64,000 nt of DNA from Bacteroidota bacterium (GCA_029237825.1 JAQZBQ010000004.1:124001-188000), one strand, 5' to 3'. Counted from the stretch's first letter, positions 56,672 to 64,000 are shown. Made by a program: numbers and translations. Notes: a model not told the origin generated them from the letters alone.

Positions 56672-59600
56672 TTAGTTTTTAATTATTTTGTGTACTAAAG
56701 TCTTTCCACTTTCCGGGATTTTAATTTTTAATAGGTATACACCGCTTGTCAGATGTGTTATGTCGACGCTTAAATTATTATTTCCCTTTTCAACTATGGT
56801 ATGATTTTTCCAAACTGTTTCACCCGTGAAATCAACAGCTTCAATTTCTATTAATCCATTTGATGTAGAAATGTAATCATAATAGATCAAGCCTTTTGAT
56901 GGATTTGGTCTTACATTCATTATTTGTTCGATTCCTTTCGTTAAATCAACACTTACAATGTGAGAATAGATAAAGGTATTATCAAGATCCACCTGTTTTA
57001 ACCGATAATATGATAATGATTTCAAAGGGTTTTTGTCAATAATACTATAGGTTGTTTGGTTAACCGAATTTCCTTCACTCACGATTTTACCAACCAGCAT
57101 CCAATTCGTTGCGTCGGCCGATTTTTCTACCTCGAAATAGTCGTTGTTATGTTCTGACTCCGTTGCCCATGTTAATTGAACTTCTTCGTTATCATTTAAA
57201 ACAGCATTGAAATATAACAATTCTACCGGCAAAATAATGGCGCAATTGGTTGTAGCAGTTGCACCTGGAGATTGGCTTAAAGTAATATTCTGAATAATAT
57301 TAGCATAATTAGTTACTAATACAATATACACTTCTCCGGTTTGCGCATTTGCAATATCCATTTGCTCAGTATTCGAGCTTGAATAACTGCAATCGATTGG
57401 TGCAGGGTAAGAAGCGCAGTCAGCCTGTCCTGCTGCCAAATTCGGGTAAGGGCCCCACATAGCAAAGTCGACATCGGAACCCGCAGTTAAGTCAACTTCC
57501 ATAGTTCCGGGTGTGGCGATTTCAAGATAAAACCAGGTTGGATTTGGCTTTGTACTTAAACATCCATAATTGGGTCCAACAGGCGCTGCAGTACCCCCTG
57601 ACTGTGCCTGAAACACATAAGGCGATCCAGAACAAATTGGTTGCATTAAATTACACGTTGTGTTTGTAGGTGGTGGTGGCGTAGGACTGACACACAGGCT
57701 AAATGTTGTATTTTGCCCGGAAGTTGATGTTGATGAATAAATTCTCACAAAATAGGTAGCGCCAACTGTGAGGCCTGTTAATGTACTACTGTTGGGGTCG
57801 CTACATTTAATTGCCGCCCCGAGAGAGCCACATGTTCCTGCATATACTGAGTGGTACAAATCGGTTGTCGAACCTGAAACATTATTTAAATTCACATTCA
57901 TCGATGTACTATTTGCAACAAAAGAATACCATACATCATCATCTGCGGTGCCCCCGCAGGAACCCAATGCTATTCCTGTAGCAGTTGCCCCTGAAATTGT
58001 TCCCGCTGTTTGAACTGTGCATGTTGATGCTGCGGTATTGACCGGGGCGTTTGTTGCAGAGCATGGATTGTCGTTTGGCGGAGGCGGCGGCGGCGCCGAA
58101 ATACAAATATTCTGAGTAGTTATTACTGCGCTATAATAGGTATAAAGTCGTATGTAATATGTTTGTCCTACAGTTAGACCGGTTAATGTGCCACCTGTGT
58201 TATTGTCCGTACATAAAATCGAAGTCATCGTGCTTCCGCAGTTGCCTGAAAACACCTGCCAATAGATATCGGTAGCGCCTGAAACCCAGGTAGCGGATAA
58301 TATTTGAGTTGTGCTGGTCGCAACAAATTTAAACCAAACGTCATCATCTGGTGTTCCGGCATTGCTGGTGCACGAACCACTTGGTGTTACATTTGAATTG
58401 GTTGCAGCATTGGTTGATTGGTTTGTCAGGTTAGCGCAGGTTCCATCAGTGGGTATAACCGGAAAAGCAGTAGCTCCAGAACAATTATCGTTAGTAGGAG
58501 GGGGAGGAGGAGCTGAAATACAAATGTTTTGATTCGTACCACCGGTGCTCGACCAGGTGTACAGTCTGACATAATAAGTATTTCCGATTGTAAGACCAGT
58601 AATTGTTCCTCCGGAATTATTATCTGTGCAAAGGAGCGAATTCATTGTGCCGCTGCAGTTTCCTGAAAACACTTGCCAGTAAACATCGGTATTCCCAGAA
58701 TTATAAGTTGCAGTTAAAATTTGAGATGTGCTGGTTGCTACAAATTTAAACCACACATCATCATCCGGAGTCCCAGAATTGCTGGTGCAGGCACCAGTAG
58801 GTGTAACATTTGAATTGGTAGCTCCCGTAGTGTATTGATTTAATAAATTAGCACATGAACCATCTGTTGGTATGGAAGGAAATGATGTGGCGGACGAACA
58901 GTTGTCGTTTGTTGGCGGTGGTGGAGTGGTGGATATACAAATGTTTTGACTTGTCACATCTCCGCTATAATAAGTATACAACCTTACATAATAAGTTGCT
59001 CCTACGGTTAAACCCGTCATTGTGGCTCCAGCATCTGTATCGGTACATAGAATAGATGTCATGGTACCGTTGCAACTACTTGAGAATACCTGCCAATAAA
59101 CGTCACTGGCTCCTGAAACTTTTGTCGCGGATAAAATTTGAGTAGAATTAGTAGCAACAAACGAAAACCAAACATCATCATCCGGTGTTCCAAAGTTGCT
59201 GCTACAAGCACCCGAAGGTGTAACATTGGAATTCGAAGCACTTGCAGTAGACTGGTTCAGTAAATTTGCACACGATCCGTCAGTGGGAACCGAGGGAAAA
59301 GGAGTTGCGTTTGCGCAGTTATCATTTATTGGGGGGCATGAAGTAGAATTAGTTACGATTGCATTATCTGTTAAAGTACAACCGGATGAAGTATGCGTTA
59401 AGGTCCAGCGAAGTGTTACAGAAGTATTGGAAGGTATCGTACTTACATTCGATGTTGCAGAGCCTGAGTTTGAAAAGCTAATTCCGGTGCAATTAGTGAC
59501 ACAGCTCCATGATCCTGTGAAACCGGTAGGTGCTGCCGTTGCAGAAAGAGCAAACGTTCCTGTGTTACACAATAACTGATCCGGACCGGCATTAGCGGAT

Positions 59601-60304
59601 GGAGGAGTAGTGTAAGAAATTATAATTTGACCTCTTCCTCCTGCCGCACCACTACTATTCCTTGTTCCGCCACCCCCTCCGCCGCCAACGATCGAGCCGG
59701 GAAGACCTGGATCACCATTTGCTGTATTCCCATTTCCTCCATCGCCACCGATAGTTCCGGTACCACCTAATGGAATACTTCCATTTCCTGCTGTACCAAT
59801 TGGCGGCGCTCCCTCGCCCCCTCCGCCACTCCCAGTAGATAGACCTGTAGCGCCACTTCCACCATTATTACTTGAAGTTCCGCCACTACCTGTTCCTCCA
59901 GCGCCACCGGCGCCACCGGACGCGTAGGAGCCTCCAAGATTACCGCCTAAACCCGAAACTGTTGTAGATCCAACAATCAACATTGAAGTTCCACCTGCCG
60001 CTGCAGCAGTGGTAGATGTTCCTCCTGAGCCACCACTACCAACAGTATAATTATATGATGTTCCTGAAACAACAGATAATGAGGTATGCGAAGCGAAGCC
60101 TCCGCCACCACCACCACCGCCACCATTTTTATTTGCCCCGCCTCCATACCCACCGCCGCCTCCGCCACCCCAACATTGAACGGTAATGGTTGAAACACCA
60201 CAAGGTGGAATAAACGATCCTGAGGTTGTAAGTGTTAAAGTAGTAGTTTGTGAAAAAGCATATATCCATAAAATGGAAAAGAGCGAGGTTAGAAATTTTT
60301 TCAT
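56672..60304 (-). CDS. Giant T9SS protein with Gly-rich domain and tandem repeats
   Basis: A 1210-residue secreted protein, second gene of a two-gene module. It has a signal peptide (MKKFLTSLFSILWIYAFS), a glycine-rich region at about 45-235 (GGGGGGGYGGGANKNGGGGG), a short bridge, then three repeats of 139 codons and one diverged copy. Landmarks per unit are NDNC..A/S, GTPDDDVWFKFVAT and TYYVRLYTYYS. A C-terminal type A T9SS signal follows (NVRPNPSKGLIYYDY, GVYLLKIKI, LVHKIIKN). The repeats contain conserved Cys and Asp residues. Probably a surface adhesin or fibre; ligand unknown. It begins 24 bp after the small protein gene at 60329. Confidence 0.9.
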   Translation of the reverse strand: MKKFLTSLFSILWIYAFSQTTTLTLTTSGSFIPPCGVSTITVQCWGGGGGGGYGGGANKNGGGGGGGGGFASHTSLSVVSGTSYNYTVGSGGSGGTSTTAAAAGGTSMLIVGSTTVSGLGGNLGGSYASGGAGGAGGTGSGGTSSNNGGSGATGLSTGSGGGGEGAPPIGTAGNGSIPLGGTGTIGGDGGNGNTANGDPGLPGSIVGGGGGGGTRNSSGAAGGRGQIIISYTTPPSANAGPDQLLCNTGTFALSATAAPTGFTGSWSCVTNCTGISFSNSGSATSNVSTIPSNTSVTLRWTLTHTSSGCTLTDNAIVTNSTSCPPINDNCANATPFPSVPTDGSCANLLNQSTASASNSNVTPSGACSSNFGTPDDDVWFSFVATNSTQILSATKVSGASDVYWQVFSSSCNGTMTSILCTDTDAGATMTGLTVGATYYVRLYTYYSGDVTSQNICISTTPPPPTNDNCSSATSFPSIPTDGSCANLLNQYTTGATNSNVTPTGACTSNSGTPDDDVWFKFVATSTSQILTATYNSGNTDVYWQVFSGNCSGTMNSLLCTDNNSGGTITGLTIGNTYYVRLYTWSSTGGTNQNICISAPPPPPTNDNCSGATAFPVIPTDGTCANLTNQSTNAATNSNVTPSGSCTSNAGTPDDDVWFKFVATSTTQILSATWVSGATDIYWQVFSGNCGSTMTSILCTDNNTGGTLTGLTVGQTYYIRLYTYYSAVITTQNICISAPPPPPPNDNPCSATNAPVNTAASTCTVQTAGTISGATATGIALGSCGGTADDDVWYSFVANSTSMNVNLNNVSGSTTDLYHSVYAGTCGSLGAAIKCSDPNSSTLTGLTVGATYFVRIYSSTSTSGQNTTFSLCVSPTPPPPTNTTCNLMQPICSGSPYVFQAQSGGTAAPVGPNYGCLSTKPNPTWFYLEIATPGTMEVDLTAGSDVDFAMWGPYPNLAAGQADCASYPAPIDCSYSSSNTEQMDIANAQTGEVYIVLVTNYANIIQNITLSQSPGATATTNCAIILPVELLYFNAVLNDNEEVQLTWATESEHNNDYFEVEKSADATNWMLVGKIVSEGNSVNQTTYSIIDKNPLKSLSYYRLKQVDLDNTFIYSHIVSVDLTKGIEQIMNVRPNPSKGLIYYDYISTSNGLIEIEAVDFTGETVWKNHTIVEKGNNNLSVDITHLTSGVYLLKIKIPESGKTLVHKIIKN
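58098..59348 (-). repeat. Tandem 417-bp repeats within the giant T9SS gene
   Basis: Units start at about 58098, 58515 and 58932, exactly 417 bp (139 codons) apart. A fourth, diverged unit lies next to them at 57670-58097. Confidence 0.88.
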
Positions 60305-60328
60305 GAGATCGGGGCCAATAAGTTAAAA

Positions 60329-60619
60329 CTATTTGTAAGAGAGAATGTCTTCCTTTTTGATATGGTATTTTTTCAAAAGGTCAAACAAATCCGTTTCATC
60401 CATGGAAAGTTTATGTACTAACGTAAACTCGCGAACATGTTCACCGACCTCGACAGAAACCACTTTTTCGTTCCAGCTAATTAATTCATTTTTTAAATTC
60501 AGAATATTTTTTTCTGTTAGTCCCTCTGTTGAGATTTTAAGCGTTTTTGATTTAGTGAGGGTTTGAGAATAGGAAAGCTTAGCAGTAATTAAAAACATAG
60601 CTAATAATAAGTTTTTCAT
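60329..60619 (-). CDS. Small exported protein, first gene of a duplicated module
   Basis: A 96-residue protein with a signal peptide (MKNLLLAMFLITAKLSYSQ). The mature part has a beta-alpha-beta-beta-alpha-beta pattern (KTLKIST, NILNLKNELISW, VVSVEVGEHVREFTLVHK, LFDLLKKYHIKKEDILSY). It resembles a ferredoxin-like fold but has no Cys. Its second half aligns with the visible C-terminus of the partial gene at 63853-64000 (EFTLVHK..KYHIKKEDILS against ELAIEHN..KYKIPRHKIIS). Each lies just ahead of a giant T9SS protein. A chaperone, plug or assembly partner for that protein is inferred. Confidence 0.75.
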   Translation of the reverse strand: MKNLLLAMFLITAKLSYSQTLTKSKTLKISTEGLTEKNILNLKNELISWNEKVVSVEVGEHVREFTLVHKLSMDETDLFDLLKKYHIKKEDILSYK

Positions 60620-60846
60620 AATAGAAACGAGTTGTTACTATTATAAATTTAAATGTTTGGCCTGTGTGATCCTAGTTATGAAACCGGGGCAGAATAAGGG
60701 AGCTGAACATTAAACAACTGTTTATCTACCGATTAACCCAATTGATAGTCAGATTATATTGGTTAAACAAAAGTAAGTAAAAATTAACAACTAAAAATTT
60801 TAGATCTAAACAGGTTTAGGAGGCTACATAAATTTCTGACGATCCG

Positions 60847-63822
60847 TTACTGTTTAATAATTTTTTGAAGTACAGATTTGTCGGAACTTTTTAATGATAT
60901 TTTCAATAAAAAAATGCCTGACTCGAAATTTTTTAAATCCAAATTTAGTGAGTGATAGCCACTCGCCATGGCCTTAATCTCAGACATCATTAATTTTCCG
61001 GTATTATTATATAGTTCAATATTTACATGATCTTGATTAACAAGGTTGACGTCAAATAACAGATCTCCATTTGTTGGATTTGGTCGTGCATTTGATATAT
61101 AGTTCGTTAGGTTTGTATTATCCACTGCTATCATATTGGAGTATTCGCTTGAATTGTCGCCATTAACAAGCTTTAAACGGTAATAGGTAACCACCGGAAA
61201 TGGAGTCATATCAAACACGTTGTAGTTTTTTGCAGACGTACTAAATCCCGCCGCTTCAACTCTCATTAACGCTTCAAATGTTACCCCGTCCTTTGATTTC
61301 TCTACATCAAAAAATGCAGTGTTCTTTTCCGTAGCAGTTACCCATTGAACTTTATTTTTCAAATCCTCGTTGTGACCCACAAAGGTTAATAGCTCCATTG
61401 GGAGTATACCCACTGCAGTCCAACCGCTAACAGTAAAATTGCAAACGTCTCCTGCATAACCATCCACCATCAGTATGTAAGTCTGACCAGCCACAAGGCC
61501 CGTGGCAGTTACCGTGCCGCTCGATGTTGTACCTGGATTATAGCAATTCGATACGGACGTAAATGATGTACAACATCCCGATGCATTTGTACTTACCTTA
61601 TATACCTGTGCTTGTACACCGTCGTTCCATGTACATCCATTAACAGATGTAAACGGAAATGACGCGGTGGTACCAGTTGCAACAAATTGGTACCATGAAT
61701 TGTTTTCTATTGAGCCACAAAATACTGATGAAATGTTTCCTGGCAGATCAGAGGAATAAGTACTTGAGGTAGTGCTTGAAAATGTTCCTGCGCCTTGGGT
61801 TAATGTTGCGGGATTTGAACAAAAGTCGTTGTTTGAAGGGTTGCCGCAGGCGCCAACCGGTGGAGCCGTTTTTATGCAAACACTGAAAGTTGATGTTTGT
61901 CCCGGGGTTGATGTCCATGTGTAAACTCTAACATAATAAGTATTTCCTAAAATGAGTCCTGAAATTGAACTGTTATTTGGATCACTGCATAATATAGGAG
62001 AACCTATAGACGCACAAGAGCCGGAATATAGCGAATGATACATGTCACTTGTTGATCCGGCAATATTTGTAATGCTGATAGAATGGGTGGAACTTGTTGC
62101 TACAAAGCTATACCAGACGTCATCATCGGCAGTGCCTCCACAACCATTGGCGGTAAATGACGAACTAGCTCCAAGAACAGTTCCTCCTACGAGTGAGGAG
62201 CAGGTAGTACCCGAATTGGGTGTTATGGAAGTAGCACCGGGACAATCATCATTGGATGGAGGTGTAATACATGTTCTTGAAATCGTAAAAGAACCAGTGG
62301 TTGTACCCGTTGTATAATAGGCAACATAAACGTAGTACGTCGTTCCGTTAATGGTAGAAAAGGTATATTCTTCCGTACCACCTGAATATGCATCGTCCAC
62401 ACACGATATTGTAGTTATGGAGCCACAGCTTCCACTAAAAATATCTATTTCGTGATCGAATCCTGACGCACCGGTAGAGCTTATAAGCGTACTTTGTCCG
62501 TTCCCAGTAAAAGTGTACCAAACCCCATACGCACTTGCGCATCCTCCGGGAGCCGTTTCACTAACTGCACCGATTGTGGTACCGGCTAAATTTGTTGTGC
62601 CACAAGGAAGAGAGGTTGCTCCCGAACAAGCATCATTTATTGGGGGAGCAGTACAAGTTCTTGAAATGGTAAAGTTGCCTGTGGTGGAACCTGAAGTATA
62701 ATAGGCAACATAAACATAATAAGTTGTGCCGTTAACAGATGTGAATGTATAGTTCTCGTTACTTCCCGAGCCATTATTATCCACACAAGAAATATTTGTG
62801 AGTGATCCGCAGCTTCCACTAAAAATATCAATTTCGTGATCGAATCCGGATGCAGCAGTAGAACTAATAGTAGTTGATTGGCCGTTCCCGGTAAACGTAT
62901 ACCAAACACCGTACGCGCTGGCACATCCTCCGGGAGCAGTTTCGGCAACCGCCCCAACCGTTGTTCCTGCCAGATTACTTGTTCCGCAAGGTAAAGAAGT
63001 TGCTCCCGAACAAGCATCGTTGGAAGGCGGAGCAATACAAGTTCGTGAAATGGTAAAGTTGCCTGTGGTGGTGCCTGAAGTATAATAGGCAACATAAACA
63101 TAATAAGTTGTGCCATTAATAGATAAAAAAGAATAACTCTCAGTACTTCCAGAACCATTATTATCTACACATGCTATATTGGCTAAAGATCCACAATTTC
63201 CGCTGAAGATATCAATTTCATGATCAAACCCTGATGCTGCCGTAGAACTTATAGTAGTGGACTGGCCATCTCCGACAAAGGTATACCAAACACCGTAAGC
63301 GCTAGCACAACCGCTCGGCGCTGTTTCGCTAACAGCATTTACCGTTGTGCCAGCTAAATTACTGGTCCCACAAGGCAAAGAGGTGGCGAAAGAACAGTCG
63401 TCATTAGAAGGAGGAGGGGGCGGCGTTCCGCATTTTACAGACCTTGTTCTATTTGAAGAAGATGTACCACATGAACTATTGGTGTTATTATAAAATCGTA
63501 CATTTCCTGTAATAGCGGCCGTCCACACAACAGGGGTTGTTCCAAAAGCATAGACAGGTGCTCCTCCACCAGCATTTGCTATTGTTAAAAAATCGGTTGA
63601 AACACTACTGCTAAAAGTATAGGTTATTCCAGAAGTGACGTAAACCATCGAATAATCAGTTGCCCATCCCGAAGTCGTAATATTTTGTGAAGTGCCGTTG
63701 CAATTAGGTGTAAATGTCGCACTCGGATATAATGAAGTATTACTTGTACACTGACTATAACTACTGGCACCCTGTGCCAAAACAATTACAAAAAAATAAA
63801 GTTTTAAAATGCCTGATTTCAT
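60847..63822 (-). CDS. Giant T9SS protein with 128-codon tandem repeats
   Basis: A 991-residue secreted protein with signal peptide (KLYFFVIVLAQGASSYSQ), a 115-residue N-terminal domain, and three near-identical units of 128 residues. Each unit begins with SNDxCxxATSLPCGT and contains SAYGVWYTFVGDGQST, SGFDHEIDIFSG and TTYYVYVAYYTSG. Then a diverged unit (GGTADDDVWYSFVATSS) close to the last unit of the protein at 56672, and a Cys-rich domain. The T9SS type A end is ARPNPTNGDLLFDVN, SGIFLLKISL and KSVLQKIIKQ. Likely a surface adhesin. Preceded at 30 bp by the partial small gene. Confidence 0.9.
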   Translation of the reverse strand: MKSGILKLYFFVIVLAQGASSYSQCTSNTSLYPSATFTPNCNGTSQNITTSGWATDYSMVYVTSGITYTFSSSVSTDFLTIANAGGGAPVYAFGTTPVVWTAAITGNVRFYNNTNSSCGTSSSNRTRSVKCGTPPPPPSNDDCSFATSLPCGTSNLAGTTVNAVSETAPSGCASAYGVWYTFVGDGQSTTISSTAASGFDHEIDIFSGNCGSLANIACVDNNGSGSTESYSFLSINGTTYYVYVAYYTSGTTTGNFTISRTCIAPPSNDACSGATSLPCGTSNLAGTTVGAVAETAPGGCASAYGVWYTFTGNGQSTTISSTAASGFDHEIDIFSGSCGSLTNISCVDNNGSGSNENYTFTSVNGTTYYVYVAYYTSGSTTGNFTISRTCTAPPINDACSGATSLPCGTTNLAGTTIGAVSETAPGGCASAYGVWYTFTGNGQSTLISSTGASGFDHEIDIFSGSCGSITTISCVDDAYSGGTEEYTFSTINGTTYYVYVAYYTTGTTTGSFTISRTCITPPSNDDCPGATSITPNSGTTCSSLVGGTVLGASSSFTANGCGGTADDDVWYSFVATSSTHSISITNIAGSTSDMYHSLYSGSCASIGSPILCSDPNNSSISGLILGNTYYVRVYTWTSTPGQTSTFSVCIKTAPPVGACGNPSNNDFCSNPATLTQGAGTFSSTTSSTYSSDLPGNISSVFCGSIENNSWYQFVATGTTASFPFTSVNGCTWNDGVQAQVYKVSTNASGCCTSFTSVSNCYNPGTTSSGTVTATGLVAGQTYILMVDGYAGDVCNFTVSGWTAVGILPMELLTFVGHNEDLKNKVQWVTATEKNTAFFDVEKSKDGVTFEALMRVEAAGFSTSAKNYNVFDMTPFPVVTYYRLKLVNGDNSSEYSNMIAVDNTNLTNYISNARPNPTNGDLLFDVNLVNQDHVNIELYNNTGKLMMSEIKAMASGYHSLNLDLKNFESGIFLLKISLKSSDKSVLQKIIKQ
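62264..63415 (-). repeat. Three tandem 384-bp repeats
   Basis: Boundaries at 62264, 62648, 63032 and 63416 are exactly 384 bp (128 codons) apart. Sequence identity between copies is high enough to allow recombination. Confidence 0.9.
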
Positions 63823-63852
63823 TTACTAATAAAATAAATTAACTTTCATGTT

Positions 63853-64000
63853 CTATTTATCACTGATAATCTTGTGTCTAGGAATTTTATACTTGTCAGT
63901 CATTTCATAGATCTCCCGCATTTGCCAGAGGGCGTTGTGTTCAATGGCTAATTCATGATTCGTTGAATCGATTGTAATTGAAATGATTTTGCCCTTCCAG
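63853..64000 (-). CDS. C-terminal part of a small protein, N-terminus beyond window
   Basis: An open frame from the right edge to the stop at 63853-63855, giving 48 residues (WKGKIISITIDSTNHELAIE, then HNALWQMREIYEMTDKYKIP). Its pattern follows the C-terminal half of the small protein at 60329. It ends 30 bp ahead of the giant T9SS gene at 60847, so it should be the first gene of that module. The rest lies outside the window. Confidence 0.6.
   Translation of the reverse strand, partial: WKGKIISITIDSTNHELAIEHNALWQMREIYEMTDKYKIPRHKIISDK

Follow-up and report, generated by a model that had tools for sequence, protein, structure and literature searches.

A conserved gene pair in Bacteroidota sets a small, exported-looking protein beside giant PF23759 repeat proteins of the type IX secretion system

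In type III secretion and in the assembly of fimbriae, the small gene for a chaperone adjoins the gene for its cargo, with one chaperone for each cargo. For the type IX secretion system (T9SS), the nearest described arrangement is that of the SprB/SprF (PorP-like) pairs, in which a substrate gene lies beside the gene for its own specific partner; in Flavobacterium johnsoniae, 9 of the 12 genes for type B substrates adjoin an SprF-like gene (PMC12618676). Here we describe a different pair, present twice in a window of 64,000 nucleotides from a Bacteroidota bacterium (GCA_029237825.1, JAQZBQ010000004.1:124001-188000; G000:C15:124001-188000 in our numbering, the home assembly G000 having 3.55 Mb). 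Each of the two modules comprises a small gene, encoding an exported-looking alpha/beta protein, and directly behind it the gene for a giant T9SS protein carrying PF23759 (GBD_T9SS_assoc) repeats. The module is a real, conserved and apparently undescribed gene pair, and we propose, with a probability of roughly 45%, that the small protein acts in the periplasm as a partner dedicated to the folding or export of its own giant, an escort.

Both modules lie head to tail on the minus strand as open reading frames (ORFs; Table 1), with gaps between small gene and giant of 24 bp in module 1 and 30 bp in module 2. The second small gene reaches across the window edge and was completed, at 107 aa, by extending the contig rightward. 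Its product is related to that of the first small gene (P0001) over the whole length (BLASTP, 25% identity, E = 1e-13) and was also recovered independently by a search of the home genome (E = 1e-7). The two giants, P0003 and P0004, align over ~900 residues with 33% identity (E = 1e-101) and have PF23759 and Por_Secre_tail in common. PF23759 scored 89.1 and 50.8 bits, respectively, against a curated cut-off of 27; the tails were assigned to type A on PF18962 (Por_Secre_tail) scores of 34.3 and 32.5 bits (cut-off 27), with TIGR04183 at 28.1 and 34.6 bits (cut-off 23). Both giants start with a hydrophobic stretch, as read from the sequence (MKKFLTSLFSILWIYAFSQ and MKSGILKLYFFVIVLAQG). The original prediction, made from the window alone, of a duplicated module with a small alpha/beta protein and a fixed gene order is borne out by these results. 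Homology between the giants covers the repeats and the tail but not the N-terminus, where the normalised BLAST score is 0.05 and where P0003, unlike P0004, begins with a Gly_rich_2 domain. Judging from these alignments, the duplicated unit is the small gene together with its giant. The duplication is old, because both types have their own relatives in other genomes.

Contig C32 of the home genome carries a third PF23759 giant, which was inspected on account of its repeats. The gene for a 123-aa exported-looking protein, predicted to have a beta-alpha-beta-beta-alpha-beta arrangement, lies 26 bp upstream of it. This protein was not picked up by the first profile of the P0001 group, and only the signal-peptide half and the first strand and helix of the two groups can be aligned, so a shared predicted fold is claimed for them and not shared descent.

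In total, 33 loci from several Bacteroidota families encode such small proteins, 18 of them P0001-like, as in the window, and 15 of the third-module type (the L079 group, named after the C32 locus). At 33 of 33 loci a giant follows the small gene directly, with both genes on one strand. The gap runs from -23 to 105 bp, the largest negative value hinging on the ATG chosen as the start of the giant, with a median of 24 bp, and is within 60 bp at 32 of the 33. Searches for the P0001 group used the small proteins alone as queries, so the neighbours played no part in choosing the matches. P0001 found relatives in G008, G024 and G017 among 100 related genomes; a profile of five sequences added five more within the class, one of ten sequences further members in family f34, and one of sixteen sequences G031. 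A giant lay directly downstream at all 18 loci of this group. With the C32 small protein as query, 13 more loci were found in family f1, and one more, L132 in f34, came from a survey of PF23759; a giant follows directly behind each, PF23759 being present in all those scanned, and L132, having been found through its giant, is no independent test of adjacency. Among the 33 confident full-length homologues, none was found without a T9SS repeat neighbour. Scanning contigs with P0001 gave no confirmed relative; a like scan with citrate synthase matched only metagenome bins with names such as Bacteroidia or Bacteroidetes bacterium, which places the organism no more closely than among uncultured Bacteroidia. 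A search of the phylum with the L079-group profile returned the home genome only, which is weak evidence of absence given that 11 candidates were scored per genome. Weak profile matches (E about 1e-5 to 1e-2) were rejected as unrelated larger or other proteins (thioredoxin-like, ExbD, SRPBCC and others) or as matches to the signal peptide. A promoter motif was seen upstream of 4 of 32 small genes where 1.7 would be expected, and is not informative.

The prediction had named the partner as a T9SS repeat protein. This is correct for giants with PF23759 and does not extend to T9SS proteins in general. The home genome has a large T9SS secretome, with 97 Por_Secre_tail matches, and the upstream region was readable for 87 of these genes, of which two encode the giants of the window and 85 do not. 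A small partner gene precedes 3 of 3 PF23759 giants, including the type B giant on C32, compared with 0 of the 85 other T9SS genes. The Fisher p of 9e-6 (9e-5 when short exported ORFs of every kind are included) is partly circular, as two of the three giants were the starting observation; the C32 case and the adjacency tally above are independent of it. Short exported-looking ORFs do occur upstream of T9SS genes at C27:23110 and C27:129660, and these are unlike the small partner proteins. Across genomes, the partner giants vary in their N-terminal domain (Gly_rich_2, CUB, P-domain or none) and have tails of type A or of type B (CHU_C). Their common part is PF23759, which is present in every one scanned except a split gene in G472, whose first ORF has no family match and whose DDDVW repeat sits in the next ORF; it falls just below the cut-off of 27 in the giant of G017, also split (26.4 bits), and in that of C32 (25.7 bits).

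Small-protein and giant types are inherited together. The type of small protein tracks the N-terminal type of the giant, the first window pair (G000a) going with G008 and G024 (Gly_rich_2) and the second (G000b) with G017 (CTxNTSLYPS type), and the reciprocal matches G000a-G008 and G000b-G017 cut across genomes. The similarity matrices of small proteins and giant N-termini are correlated (Mantel rho 0.52, reached by 0 of 5000 permutations), in part through vertical descent and the existence of two groups; stronger evidence comes from the way paralogues cross within f1. The ratio of non-synonymous to synonymous substitution rates (dN/dS) of the small gene is 0.19-0.41 in pairs with unsaturated dS. 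The small gene is therefore under purifying selection, yet changing fast.

P0001 consists of a signal-peptide-like N-terminal stretch and a beta-alpha-beta-beta-alpha-beta domain, with predicted strands and helices at residues 24-30, 36-47, 53-58, 64-70, 75-84 and 92-95, and its mature part is free of cysteine. AlphaFold2 models have a mean predicted local distance difference test score (pLDDT) of 81.8 for P0001, modelled with 10 homologues, and 83.9 for the L079 group, with the same topology and a pLDDT of about 85-96 across the domain in both. The closest solved structures to P0001 are heavy-metal-associated (HMA) domains, the first matches being plant domains of this kind that fungal effectors bind (Foldseek E 6.7e-4, TM-score 0.56/0.67; VIA Z 9.0 over 71 residues at 2.5 Å). 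S6 permutants and LarC come within 1 Z of the HMA matches, and we therefore describe the predicted fold as ferredoxin-like, with an HMA-like arrangement. For the L079 group the S6 permutants rank first, followed by ATP7B, ACT and AsnC domains, indicating a general ferredoxin-like fold. In profile comparison, the small proteins match four secreted HMA proteins of the home genome weakly (hhalign probability 62%), and in comparisons with single HMA proteins 0.018-0.041 of shuffled decoys score as high; the L079 group showed no sequence link to HMA proteins. The small proteins might be descended from HMA proteins. A CxxC motif is found in 0 of the 33 small proteins, the mature part has no cysteine at all in 29 of them, and every small protein scanned lacks a match to the HMA profile PF00403. 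The scanned small proteins, of 96-143 aa, do not match the PorP/SprF barrel profile (PF11751) either, and have no T9SS tail and, by eye, no lipobox.

These observations suggest the following scheme. The small gene and the giant would be transcribed together, given their short spacing. The small protein would be exported by Sec and cut by signal peptidase I, as its N-terminal hydrophobic stretch ends in SxSQ or similar, and would then stay in the periplasm, since it has neither sorting tail nor lipobox, and bind its own giant there. It would probably do so at the PF23759 region, which is common to the partners whatever their N-domain or tail type. Binding might keep the long, cysteine-rich repeat chain soluble and foldable until its export through SprA and a shuttle; the escort would thus have a metal-carrier-like fold without the metal site. 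T9SS effectors are described as passing the inner membrane in an unfolded state and as folding in the periplasm before they are recruited (PMC10202324), and with one small protein made alongside each giant, a folding or holding partner is therefore the best explanation of the pairing. The suggestion in the original prediction of a small protein in the service of its large neighbour is, as far as an escort is concerned, a reasonable reading of the pairing, the co-inheritance, the signal-peptide-like start and the missing sorting tail.

Several points weigh against an escort. In a class-wide sample of 149 genomes, of which 35 had PF23759 matches, about 3 firm and at most ~6 plausible cases of a comparable gene were found among 40 giants inspected. 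The gene upstream at L132 (f34) is a member of the second, L079-type group; that at L122 (family f48) is a P0001-group relative by profile comparison, scoring above all 168 shuffled decoys; a P0001-type gene is present in G090, from the same genome sample; L128 is marginal in profile comparison with shuffled controls; and L118 and L136 are similar by eye only and were not confirmed. The giants sampled in families f9, f14, f21 and f30 showed no small partner gene. PF23759 repeats can thus be exported without this helper, as many PF23759 giants in other families have no such gene. A review of T9SS effectors makes no mention of chaperones (PMC10202324), and SkpA is already known as a general periplasmic factor (PMC10994853). 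Furthermore, genes kept together in an operon need not encode proteins that touch each other, and the signal peptides were judged by eye.

The small protein might instead be a surface subunit: having bound the giant in the periplasm, it would pass the outer membrane together with the giant or behind it and remain in the mature fibre at the surface, for example as a cap or spacer. The pairing speaks for this equally, and about one small gene per giant would suit a stoichiometric or cap subunit just as well. Having no tail of type A or B and no lipobox cysteine, the small protein would need to hitch-hike, and no T9SS partner is known to us that leaves the cell in this way without a tail, no specific search for one having been made. 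We consider a surface partner, which the prediction had offered beside the escort, the less likely of its two suggestions and unlikely overall. A periplasmic sensor or brake would report or limit giant that has not been exported, for example by binding the chain and targeting it for degradation, and so match expression to export capacity. The upstream position and short gap permit coupled translation, and a co-transcribed binder could perform quality control. Family scans of the small proteins revealed neither a regulator nor a membrane domain, and no conserved regulator gene adjoined the loci inspected; such a role seems distinctly improbable to us. The very short spacing would also fit a leader ORF whose translation matters rather than its product, and genes that are in any case inherited together might be neighbours without function. 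Against this, dN/dS values of 0.19-0.41 and a predicted fold conserved in both groups point to a selected product, and a pairing at 33 of 33 loci, in several families and with differing giant N-domains, is hard to keep by chance, which leaves little room for a leader. That the small protein is a working HMA protein delivering copper or zinc to the surface protein is very improbable: the nearest solved folds of P0001 and the weak profile match favour it, but the missing metal ligands argue strongly against it, as do the absent PF00403 matches and the home genome's own secreted CxxC HMA proteins, which are encoded by separate genes. We also set aside a toxin-immunity pair: the analysis brought up no toxin domain, and the small gene sits upstream.

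If an escort role is correct, the giant T9SS repeat proteins of Bacteroidota may be served by a class of periplasmic chaperones, each specific to its substrate, with an HMA-like fold free of a metal site and one gene per giant. We regard this generalisation as possible but doubtful. If it is true, other short exported proteins before giants could be analogous partners built on other folds, forming an undescribed general layer of T9SS export. The question bears on how export competence is kept up in chains of 1000-2000 residues; the small gene, which goes with one repeat family under type A and type B tails alike, is a concrete and testable candidate for substrate-specific help. It also provides a working hypothesis for the unnamed small proteins at these loci, and could represent a bacterial case of an HMA-like fold that binds protein and not metal.

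Table 1 Coordinates of the paired genes and their domains. Positions without a locus prefix are those of the window.
Feature	Position	Strand	Basis or remark
Small partner gene 1 (P0001, 96 aa)	60329..60619	-	open reading frame
Giant T9SS protein 1 (P0003, 1210 aa): Gly_rich_2 N-domain, PF23759 repeats, type A sorting tail	56672..60304	-	
Gly_rich_2 (PF21722) N-terminal domain, giant 1 residues 27-231	59612..60226	-	family scan
PF23759 repeat of giant 1, one copy	58532..58912	-	four stretches in protein scan
PF23759 repeat of giant 1, further copy	57698..58075	-	carries GGTADDDVWYSFVA
Por_Secre_tail (T9SS type A sorting domain) of giant 1	56684..56908	-	
Small partner gene 2 (P0002, 107 aa)	63853..64000	-	cut by window edge
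Small partner gene 2, complete	window-equivalent 63853-64176 (L004:7854-8177)	-	contig extension
Giant T9SS protein 2 (P0004, 991 aa): distinct N-domain, PF23759/PPC-like repeats, type A sorting tail	60847..63822	-	
PF23759 repeat of giant 2	61882..62256	-	
Por_Secre_tail of giant 2	60856..61083	-	
Third module (L079, G000:C32): 123-aa small protein, then 2040-aa giant with PF23759 and type B (CHU_C) tail	L079:9031-15551		
PorP/SprF gene and SPOR-domain gene, divergent from third module	L079:6952-8775		

Other small genes were seen beside large T9SS-type genes. In G024 (L024:5311-7680) and G017 (L025:8151-10844), a different small exported-looking protein is encoded ~10 bp upstream of another T9SS-type protein, adjoining the P0001-type modules. 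These proteins, of 162 and 125 aa, are 35% identical (E = 4e-17) and apparently form a second, unrelated partner family. A TGNPxxDxxxYxxxKxxW-like motif with no Pfam match turns up in several short, exported-looking proteins whose genes precede large T9SS-type genes (L122:7948-8514 in G107, L129:6920-7876 in G175 and L024:5311-5799 in G024); at L122 it follows the P0001-like domain in the same protein. Family f28 (L111:12375-13007, L113:5076-5603 and L135:12515-13039) has a lysine-rich, low-complexity exported-looking protein encoded 2-6 bp upstream of 2400-aa PF23759 giants and ending in NxTNNSNK or MNINNNSNK, apparently another kind of partner. Neither small-protein profile matches the short exported proteins that precede giants in G144 (L131) and in f28 (L135 tested). 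In G369 (L081:7714-9563), a CUB-domain T9SS-type gene just ahead of a P0001-type module is overlapped at its start by the gene for an exported-looking protein of 131 aa, again a tandem of small and large genes. In G188 (L118:6775-7416), a 213-aa protein encoded 2 bp upstream of a PF23759 giant seems, by eye, to hold two domains of the small-partner kind in tandem, which profile comparison did not confirm.

A separate PorP/SprF gene lies near two of the paired loci, L079 and L080. At the latter (L080:3912-10308, G090) a PorP/SprF gene, a P0001-type small gene and a type A giant follow one another on one strand. PorP-like shuttles have been described for type B tails, which makes this neighbour of a type A giant unexpected.

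Literature searches were limited to open-licence full text, where absence is weak evidence: no paper treated type IX secretion together with a heavy-metal-associated domain, and no substrate-specific T9SS chaperone was found. Among described systems, SprF resembles the small partner in being encoded beside its substrate but differs in being an outer-membrane barrel that acts on the tail, whereas the present partner is a predicted soluble alpha/beta protein tied to PF23759 and not to a tail type. Secreted Bacteroidota HMA proteins (PF00403) share the predicted fold, the exported start and a similar length; the small partner proteins differ from them in having no CxxC or Pfam match and in their gene neighbour. 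The integrated HMA domains of the plant immune receptors Pik-1 and RGA5, which do not bind metal, are among the best structural matches and show an HMA fold binding protein, but they belong to eukaryotic receptors and their likeness to P0001 is one of fold only. SkpA, in the extended T9SS translocon, is likewise a periplasmic helper of export, yet it is a general component with a Skp fold and is not encoded with one substrate (PMC10994853). The chaperones of type III effectors and fimbrial subunits show no sequence or structural relation to the small proteins, whose proposed partner role is based on gene pairing. The module described here is thus apparently an undescribed variant of cognate substrate-partner pairs.

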